Shown here: positions 1,069 to 4,208 of the stretch, in pieces
Layout: every line of letters starts with the position of its first letter
How positions within the stretch are numbered: the first letter of the stretch is position 1
DNA from: Aquabacterium sp.
Lineage (GTDB): Bacteria; Pseudomonadota; Gammaproteobacteria; Burkholderiales; Burkholderiaceae_C
Direction: 5' to 3'
DNA: 38,800 nucleotides
Assembly (NCBI GenBank): GCA_004322345.1
Contig: SCTQ01000093.1
Span: forward strand, 1 to 38,800
Made by a program: the position numbers and the translations under genes
The notes under the pieces: model-generated
The model's database searches: none
Seen by the model: only the letters and a program-made list of their open reading frames with translations
What the model was told of the DNA's origin: nothing

Positions 1069-2004
1069 CTAAACGACCAGACACCCGCGCGTACGCGCCA
1101 CCTCCACCCGCGCCTCCATGCCGGCGGAGAACACCAGCGCATCGGCCTCCATGCCGTCCGAGAAGATGGTGCCGTTGTCCGGCATGCGCGACCTCAGCAG
1201 CAGCGGCTCGCCCGCGCGCACGCTGCCCCACACCAGCGTGGCCTGCGAGGCCCGGCTGGGGAAGGGCTCGCGCACCGCGAAGCGCAACTCCTCGGTGTCC
1301 CAGGGCAGCGGCGCATAGGGCGTGTCCCGGCCCCCGGCCATGCCGCTGGCCCGCGCCAGCGCGGCCGAACCGGTCAGCATGCTCTTGAGCCAGGCGGTGG
1401 AGCCCAGCCCGGTGGAGACGATGAGCCCGGACGACGACTGCAGCTCGCGCAAGCCGCCGCACTCGATCTCGTACAGCGCCGAGGTGTGCGTGCGCGCGCC
1501 GATGAAGAGGTCATTGACCGCGCGCAGGGCCTGCCCGTCGGACAGGGTGACCTGGGCCATCGTCACCGGCCTGCTGCCGCGCTGGCCCATCGCCACCGGC
1601 CGCAGCAGCGCATGCAGCTGCTGCGCTTCGAAGGGCAGCAGCAGGCCGTCCCAGCGCTGCGGCTCGGGGTTCAGGCCGATCAGCGGCTGGCCGTCCAGGT
1701 ACTTCATCGTGTTGGCCACCAGGCCATCCGAGCCCAGCGCCACCACGATGTCCTGGGTGCCGAAGATGAAGTTCGGCAGGAGGCTGCGGTCGATCACCTG
1801 GTGCCGTCCCCAGCGCTGCAGCGCGGCGGTCGCGGTCTCCAGGCTGCGGGCATAGGCCTCGTCCTCGCGCAGGTAGTCCGAGAAGTCCGCGCCCAGGTGC
1901 TCGAGGTAGAAGCGCGCCTGGGCCAGGGTCTGGTAGCGCGCGGCCAGCTCCTGCAGCCGCGTGCGCCGCGTCACCAGCACGACCTTGCGCTCAGCCCGGG
2001 CCAC
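1069..2004 (-). CDS. NAD(+)/NADH kinase-like protein
   Basis: 311 aa, GTG start; VVALGSDGLVANTMKYLDGQPLIGLNPEPQRWDG and SSSGLIVSTGLGSTAWLKSM resemble the GDG/NE-D and GSTAW elements of the ATP-NAD kinase fold. Confidence 0.75.
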   Translation of the reverse strand: MARAERKVVLVTRRTRLQELAARYQTLAQARFYLEHLGADFSDYLREDEAYARSLETATAALQRWGRHQVIDRSLLPNFIFGTQDIVVALGSDGLVANTMKYLDGQPLIGLNPEPQRWDGLLLPFEAQQLHALLRPVAMGQRGSRPVTMAQVTLSDGQALRAVNDLFIGARTHTSALYEIECGGLRELQSSSGLIVSTGLGSTAWLKSMLTGSAALARASGMAGGRDTPYAPLPWDTEELRFAVREPFPSRASQATLVWGSVRAGEPLLLRSRMPDNGTIFSDGMEADALVFSAGMEARVEVARTRGCLVV

Positions 2005-3031
2005 GGCCCCGTCCCCCGGCCGGCGCCTGCAGCAGCGACTGCAGCAGGTCCGGCGACACGTTGAGCTGGCCGATGTGCTGGGCTTTCTCGGCCAGGCCGC
2101 CGAAGGCCTGGGCGATCAGCTGGCCCGGCTGCATGCCGGAGGCGGCCAGGGCCTGCACGATGCGCGCGTCGGCCTGCTCCAGCGCGCGCATCACGGCGGC
2201 CACGCGGTGGGCCTCGGCCTCGGCCAGGGTGCGGCTGTTGTCGGCCTGGCGCGCGACCAGCGACTTGCGGCTTTCCTCCAGCTCGACGTCGGCGGCCATC
2301 TGTTCGGTGCGCAGTTCGTTCTCGCGGCGTGCCACCGCGGCGCGCGCGTCCATCTGCGCCTCGCCGATCTGGCGCTTCTTCTGCTCCACCGCGACCTCGG
2401 TGTCGAGTTCGGTCTCGCGCACCGCGCGTTCGTTCTCCACTGCGGCCATGCGGCGCGAGTAGATCGCGTCGTCGGCGGCCTTCAGCGTGGCCTCGCGCGC
2501 CTCGGCCTCCAGCGCACGGCCCATGTCGGGTGTCGGCTTGATGGCCAGGATGGACAGGTCCAGGATCTCCAGCCCCAGTGCGGCAACCTCGGCCAGTGCC
2601 GACATCCGGGCCTGCGCGGCGCGCGCGATGGTGGCCGATGCGCGCAGCACCTGCCGCAGGTCCATGGCCTGCACGGCCTGGCGCACGACGACCTCGGCCT
2701 GCAGCACCACGCGCTCGCCCAGGCGCCTGGGATCGTCGCTGGCGTTGCCGCGGCCGTCGCCCGTCAGCGAGAAGTCCAGCAGCGCCGCGATGCGTCGCGG
2801 GTCGGCGACGCGGAAGCTCACCTGGCCTTGCACCGTCACGCTCTGGAAGTCCGCGGTCAGCAGCTCCAGCATGAAGGGCCGGTCCTGGCTGCCGACCGGC
2901 ACGCTGACCAGCACCGAGGTCGGCGCGTAGTAGAAGAAGGCCAGCCCCGCGCCTTCGCGCACCAGCCGCCCGCGCCGGAACTGCATCAGGTGGGTGGTGG
3001 GCTGGGACTTGATGAAACGCAGGCCGAACAT
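1991..3031 (-). CDS. SPFH/band 7 domain-containing protein
   Basis: MFGLRFIKSQPTTHLMQFRRGRLVREGAGLAFFYYAPTSVLVSVPVGSQD... followed by a long Ala/Glu coiled coil; overlaps the downstream kinase-like gene by 14 bp. Confidence 0.8.
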   Translation of the reverse strand: MFGLRFIKSQPTTHLMQFRRGRLVREGAGLAFFYYAPTSVLVSVPVGSQDRPFMLELLTADFQSVTVQGQVSFRVADPRRIAALLDFSLTGDGRGNASDDPRRLGERVVLQAEVVVRQAVQAMDLRQVLRASATIARAAQARMSALAEVAALGLEILDLSILAIKPTPDMGRALEAEAREATLKAADDAIYSRRMAAVENERAVRETELDTEVAVEQKKRQIGEAQMDARAAVARRENELRTEQMAADVELEESRKSLVARQADNSRTLAEAEAHRVAAVMRALEQADARIVQALAASGMQPGQLIAQAFGGLAEKAQHIGQLNVSPDLLQSLLQAPAGGRGRGPG

Positions 3032-3047
3032 GGCGGGTTCCCTTTCT

Positions 3048-3109
3048 CCGGTTGACTTAGTGTTATTGCGCAACTATCATAAGTTCATCAAATGAACTAA
3101 GTCAACCGG
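3048..3109. promoter_or_regulatory. Symmetric divergent promoter/operator region
   Basis: Perfect 14-bp inverted repeat CCGGTTGACTTAGT (3048-3061) / ACTAAGTCAACCGG (3096-3109). Inner dyad AGTTCAT-CAA-ATGAACT (3082-3098). Plus promoter TTGACT (3052-3057)-17 bp-TATCAT (3075-3080). Minus promoter TTGACT (3105-3100)-18 bp-TATGAT (3081-3076). Confidence 0.75.
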
Positions 3110-3153
3110 CCGATTCGCGAGAATGCCCCGGCGGCCACGAAAGGAAACGGGAC

Positions 3154-3710
3154 ATGACCATCCGTACGCTCGACGACCTGCTGCAGGCCCACGGCCGGGG
3201 CCAGGCCCCGGACTACCTGTTCTTCTGGGGCCATCGCGGCGCCAAGGCCTGCCTCAGCCAGTGGTTCGAGGCGGCCTTCGTGGTCGACGGGCTGAGCTAC
3301 GCCTCGGCCGAGCACTTCATGATGGCCGGCAAGGCGCGGCTGTTCGGCGACGACGCCAGCCTGCGCAACATCCTCGCCGCCGCGACGCCGTCGCAGGCCA
3401 AGTCCCTGGGCCGCGCGGTCACCGGCTACGACGAGGCCGCCTGGCGGCAGCACCGCGGCGAGATCGTGCGGGCGGGCAACCTCGCCAAGTTCTCGCAGCA
3501 CGAGGCCCTGCGCGACTACCTGCTGTCCACCGGCGACCAGGTGCTGGTGGAGGCCAGCCCGGTGGACGCCGTCTGGGGCATCGGCCTGGCCCACGACCAT
3601 CCGCACGCGCCGCATCCGCCGCGCTGGCCGGGGCTGAACCTGCTGGGCTTCGCGCTGATGCAGGTGCGCGAGGAGTTGCGCGCCTGCCCTCGATGGGAAA
3701 GGACGGGACG

Positions 3711-3714
<4 letters not shown>
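3154..3714 (+). CDS. NADAR family protein (YbiA-like)
   Basis: 186 aa; [44 protein letters not shown]...AVWGIGLA is typical of the NADAR/YbiA fold. Confidence 0.9.

Positions 3715-4208
<494 letters not shown>

Follow-up and report, generated by a model that had tools for sequence, protein, structure and literature searches.

A putative bidirectional promoter flanked by two NrtR-type operators between an SPFH/NAD-kinase-like operon and a NADAR-macrodomain operon in Aquabacterium

Can one short stretch of DNA start transcription in two directions and place both directions under a single repressor? The question is raised by a 62-bp region (positions 3048 to 3109) between two divergent operons of Aquabacterium sp., within the 38,800-nucleotide stretch of DNA analysed here (the window). 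This region is a functional-looking regulatory region composed of parts of known kinds; the arrangement of these parts and their evolutionary history appear to be new. The reading which we favour, with a probability of roughly 0.7, is a bidirectional sigma-70-type promoter with overlapping -10 boxes, flanked by two symmetric NrtR-type operators, the likely repressor being the single NrtR of the genome. From the sequence we infer the transcription starts, NrtR binding, cooperativity and the response to ADP-ribose.

The genes on both sides set the context. On the minus strand, an SPFH/Band 7 protein of 346 aa (1991-3031, ATG at 3031; PF01145, E=5e-15; orthologs 61-75% identical) shares an operon with its conserved neighbour, an NAD-kinase-like protein of 311 aa (1069-2004). 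The latter resembles human NAD kinase 2 structures (E=1.6e-9), and its match to the NCBIfam NAD kinase model (E=1.7e-5) lies below the cut-off. On the plus strand, a NADAR (YbiA-like) protein of 186 aa (3154-3714; PF08719, E=6e-54) is followed by a macrodomain protein of the O-acetyl-ADP-ribose deacetylase type (3711-4208, 165 aa; PF01661, E=1e-47; NF001664 above the cut-off), whose gene overlaps the NADAR stop codon. Three of these four proteins belong to NAD- or ADP-ribose-linked families, and SPFH is tied to the theme by neighbourhood only. A further match of the NADAR protein, to the PADLOC candidate defence model PDC-M42C (E=8e-42), points to a possible role in defence.

Two promoter-like sequences occupy the intergenic region. 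The plus promoter, TTGACT-17-TATCAT (3052-3080), has its -35 box at 3052-3057 and its -10 box at 3075-3080, and would serve the NADAR-macrodomain operon. The minus promoter, TTGACT-18-TATGAT (3105-3076), has its -35 box at 3100-3105 and its -10 box at 3076-3081, and would serve the SPFH operon. Each agrees with the consensus at 10 of 12 positions. The first-pass annotation had described precisely these identical -35 boxes facing a shared centre with 17- and 18-bp spacing, and its description holds. Shuffles of the region are expected to yield 0.1 such sites, against the two found, and no other promoter-like site was detected between 2500 and 3700. The -10 boxes overlap by 5 bp as TATCATA (3075-3081), and the -11A of one strand stands opposite the -7T of the other in a reciprocal manner. 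Given this overlap, the predicted starts (~3087 on the plus strand, taken from the usual 7-bp distance, and ~3069 on the minus strand) lie 18 bp apart. Overlapping -10 boxes, reciprocal -11A/-7T pairs and starts 7-25 bp apart characterise bidirectional promoters, and all three are present here, the last with predicted starts. In published bidirectional promoters, 18 bp is the commonest start spacing (PMC10268837), and the overlapping -10 geometry has also been described elsewhere (PMC12825309). The earlier suggestion that polymerase can occupy only one direction at a time needs a restriction. In five E. coli bidirectional promoters which were tested, basal transcription was too low for polymerases to compete (PMC12825309). 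Mutual exclusion may therefore be relevant only where one of the two sides is highly active.

The promoter is embedded in symmetric elements of two kinds. The inner ones are putative NrtR-type operators of 21 bp. Operator 1 (op1, 3080-3100) reads TAAGTTCAT-CAA-ATGAACTAA on the plus strand, and its core AGTTCAT-CAA-ATGAACT (3082-3098), with perfect 7-bp arms, covers the plus start region and the minus spacer. At up to two mismatches, the 17-bp core AGTTCATCAAATGAACT has no second copy in the 4.9-Mb genome. The annotation had correctly placed a second dyad over the plus start region; its wording of that dyad, TTAGTTCAT-CAA-ATGAACTAA, does not occur, one letter having been mis-copied. It had seen op1 only, and a second site escaped notice. 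This site, operator 2 (op2, 3057-3077; core AGTTGCGCAATAACACT on the minus strand at 3059-3075), covers the minus start region and the plus spacer and is a second copy of the op1 palindrome, degenerate in one half. Read on the same strand, the two form a tandem pair (AGTTCATTTGATGAACT for op1 and AGTTGCGCAATAACACT for op2) 23 bp, or about two helical turns, apart.

The outer element is the perfect 14-bp inverted repeat (arms 3048-3061 and 3096-3109) from which the annotation had started and which is present as claimed. Its left arm consists of the plus -35 box and the outer edge of op2, its right arm of the minus -35 box and the outer edge of op1, and its centre coincides with the midpoint between the operators (3078.5). 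When perfect inverted repeats of at least 14 bp whose arms are separated by no more than 60 are counted by position, the window gives 5, and 100 dinucleotide shuffles give 0.09 on average. Dyad and promoter-like sequences alike are real features, not products of chance. That the repeat is a hairpin, a terminator or a mobile-element end with no regulatory role is scarcely credible and was rejected, for although its arms are perfect over 14 bp, they stand 34 bp apart with a promoter between them, a search revealed no terminator-like site, the -35 and operator letters are conserved whereas the outer CCGG is not, and the inner palindrome has no other copy in the genome.

How would these parts work together? 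Both operators have the same relation to the two promoters: each sits between the -35 and -10 boxes of one and on top of the predicted start region of the other. A single NrtR dimer, bound at either, might therefore shut down transcription both ways. With a promoter reading in two directions and a matching operator on each side, a single repressor that senses NAD could turn the two gene sets on or off at once. This repressor would most likely be the NrtR encoded elsewhere in the genome, beside the genes of a salvage operon (nicotinamidase, pncB, nadE and nadM). If it behaves like characterised members of the family such as MsNrtR of Mycobacterium, which loses its hold on DNA in the presence of ADP-ribose (PMC6800001), a rise in ADP-ribose would cause it to leave the DNA. 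Its release would then permit expression of the SPFH and NAD-kinase-like genes one way and of the NADAR and macrodomain genes the other way.

The candidate regulator is the single NrtR detectable in the genome (contig C450, 7063-7761). It combines a Nudix sensor with a winged helix (NUDIX and NrtR_WHD; PF21906, E=3e-19) and resembles the Shewanella NrtR structures 3gz5/3gz6 (E=7e-37). Its gene is divergent from those of the salvage operon, in which the nicotinamidase is named by sequence resemblance only, without a Pfam match. NrtR operator motifs vary by taxon (PMC5343134). Salvage operons of other genera share the operator TTAGTTGCA-n6-AACTAA, and a symmetric matrix was trained on 19 NrtR operators of NAD-salvage operons, all outside the genus. 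In the 38.8-kb window it ranked op1 first (19.4) and op2 second (13.9), the next site scoring 5.4; the maximum over 200 dinucleotide shuffles was 10.2, and none reached 13.9. Three of the training sites (L154, L155 and L157) are doubtful. A rerun with the 16 clean sites left the arm-pattern ranking unchanged: of the 11 arm-pattern matches in the genome, op1 scored highest (20.25), closely followed by the genome's own salvage operator (20.24), and op2 came third (14.44). At two mismatches, the pattern TWAGTT-N9-AACTWA is unspecific when used alone (11 places versus 15 for a reversed control); op1 is its only zero-mismatch occurrence in the genome. In addition, op2 is the window's top match for the matrix of NrtR1, the regulator encoded beside SPFH in relatives. 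Elsewhere in the genome, three palindromes of the TTTGTTC-N7 type (TTTGTT...AACAAA; C122:4616-4636, C322:47284-47304 and C322:48882-48902) are probably sites of another regulator.

The operators could nevertheless be real and be bound by a different protein, either a divergent NrtR/NadQ-like regulator or an unrelated repressor, with the salvage NrtR (NrtR2) acting on NAD salvage only. We regard this as unlikely. The inner positions of both sites do depart from the salvage consensus (for op1, TTAGTTCAT versus TTAGTTGCA), and whole-genome model searches recovered salvage operators and not op1 or op2: two sequence-only covariance models of salvage operators (R1 and R2, E<=10) reported neither window site. 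This tells against the reading which we favour; the symmetric model also missed the genome's own salvage operator, which makes the test a weak one. Within the window, the salvage covariance model returned op1 only (E=3.3). Against a separate regulator stand the detection of one NrtR-type protein only and the situation in a congener (G229), where the salvage operator TTAGTTGCGCAATGCAACTAA and the SPFH op2 ATAGTTGCACCGCGCAACTAA are near-copies. Furthermore, of 42 genomes of the genus, 4 have the SPFH gene, all of them among the 6 with NrtR2 (Fisher p=1.3e-4, uncorrected for phylogeny). In three of the four SPFH-bearing genomes, the SPFH locus and the salvage NrtR locus are 7-11 kb apart. One of the congeners (G160, L049:12231-13501) has an elongation factor G-type gene lying between the NAD-kinase-like/SPFH pair and the salvage operon; in other systems, ADP-ribosylation is known to act on translation elongation factors.

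Orthologous loci speak for repression by NrtR. SPFH orthologs were taken from the family (61-75% identity), from the genus and from 80 named genome records. In 76 of these records an NrtR-type regulator (NUDIX and NrtR_WHD) adjoins the SPFH/NAD-kinase-like pair, in 75 of them divergently; of the four exceptions, two are truncated at contig ends and two belong to Aquabacterium, the genus of the window. Upstream of SPFH, TTGAC stands in nearly all regions ahead of a tandem pair of 17-bp palindromes (AGTTGTAnTnTACAACT) spaced by 22-25 bp, so that NrtR-type operators do lie beside nrtR there. The window's op1 and op2 are in register with them, at the same place and with 23-bp spacing, and the ACACT half of op2 recurs in the second sites of Bradyrhizobium. 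The proposal that one NrtR-type repressor gates two divergent promoters with a common -10 element therefore finds comparative support in the conserved block, in the operators beside nrtR and in the choice of both sites by the salvage-operator matrix.

The divergent module made up of the nrtR, SPFH and NAD-kinase-like genes is strongly conserved in Burkholderiales, Gallionellaceae and Bradyrhizobium (loci L055-L134). In Pelomonas, nrtR is followed by the macrodomain gene, and several genera have NADAR downstream of the NAD-kinase-like gene, which makes these genes a recurrent group. A literature search found no work on a NADAR and SPFH operon or on SPFH with NAD kinase and Nudix, and the function of the module seems undescribed in the literature searched. 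In the same loci, a symmetric -10 is contained in the core TAnTnTA of the NrtR1 operator palindrome, and bidirectional -10 boxes inside operator 1 may therefore be present in many relatives too.

Are both directions of the promoter used? Transcription could come from the minus (SPFH) promoter only, the plus match being a by-product of operator symmetry and the NADAR-macrodomain operon being read from elsewhere. The minus promoter is indeed the ancestral one: its -35 box is conserved in the genus, and most orthologous regions, of which 85 are distinct, retain TTGAC. A mirrored look is also likely to arise from operator palindromes. However, the plus -35 box lies outside the core of op2, and the interval 2500-3700 offers no other promoter-like site from which the NADAR gene could be read. 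Moreover, the plus -35 box is perfectly preserved in three species with divergent macrodomain/NADAR genes and absent in G229, which lacks them; we accordingly judge transcription from the minus side only to be quite improbable.

A bidirectional promoter under NrtR control is also the reading to which the genus comparison points. In relatives, the -10 box is mostly located inside operator 1. Among the 85 regions, a -35 facing the shared -10 (at least 4 of 6 matches, scored only in regions with a symmetric -10) occurs only in the window and in two congeners (G160 and G214). These are exactly the regions in which divergent macrodomain/NADAR genes stand in place of nrtR. In G229 the minus promoter is kept and op2 is perfect, with no facing -35. 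The window block is identical to those of G160 and G214 at 49 and 50 of 56 positions, while the 5′ flank is about 50% identical. Conservation of the dyad, the lack of which the annotation would have taken as a refutation, thus extends over the block (88-89% in two congeners) and does not include the outer CCGG; the part kept is GTTGACTTnGT ... ACnAAGTCAAC, that is, the -35 box and the outer operator edge.

The three mirrored cases probably stem from one evolutionary event, and it is plausible that the salvage NrtR took over the operators of a local NrtR that was lost. We tentatively suggest a fuller scenario, whose odds we put slightly short of even. In an ancestor of the three species, nrtR1 beside SPFH would have been lost and macrodomain/NADAR genes would have taken its place. 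The tandem operators would have drifted towards the NAD-salvage NrtR motif, and the promoter, formerly inside operator 1, would have come to lie between the two operators and acquired a mirrored -35, leaving one symmetric switch for two ADP-ribose operons.

These findings tie a conserved and apparently undescribed SPFH and NAD-kinase-like pair to the ADP-ribose-sensing NrtR family in Burkholderiales and Bradyrhizobium, and would link NADAR and macrodomain enzymes to the same signal. The orthologous promoters form a natural series (nrtR-divergent, macrodomain/NADAR-divergent and neither). Such a series lends itself to studying the evolution of bidirectional promoters with symmetric operators and to testing whether a single repressor can gate both directions.

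Three known systems are comparable. The bacterial bidirectional promoters described by Warman, Wade and Grainger (PMC10268837, PMC12825309) share overlapping -10 boxes, the 18-bp distance (between predicted starts in our case) and reciprocal -11A/-7T pairs. Here, by contrast, a near-consensus -35 is found in both directions, both directions lead to protein-coding operons, and symmetric operators occupy both spacers. The NrtR regulons (Shewanella NrtR, 3GZ6; MsNrtR, PMC6800001) likewise combine a palindromic operator of ~21-23 bp, a Nudix and winged helix regulator, a divergent promoter region and NAD-related genes. They differ in their targets, which here would be the SPFH, NAD-kinase-like, NADAR and macrodomain genes, in the two tandem operators per region and in the position of nrtR, which is not adjacent in this genome. 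Lastly, NADAR/macrodomain modules for ADP-ribose reversal (PMC11125620, PMC11833690) encode the same protein families together. In the window, no ADP-ribosyltransferase toxin was noticed in passing beside these genes, which instead face an SPFH/NAD-kinase-like operon across a shared promoter.
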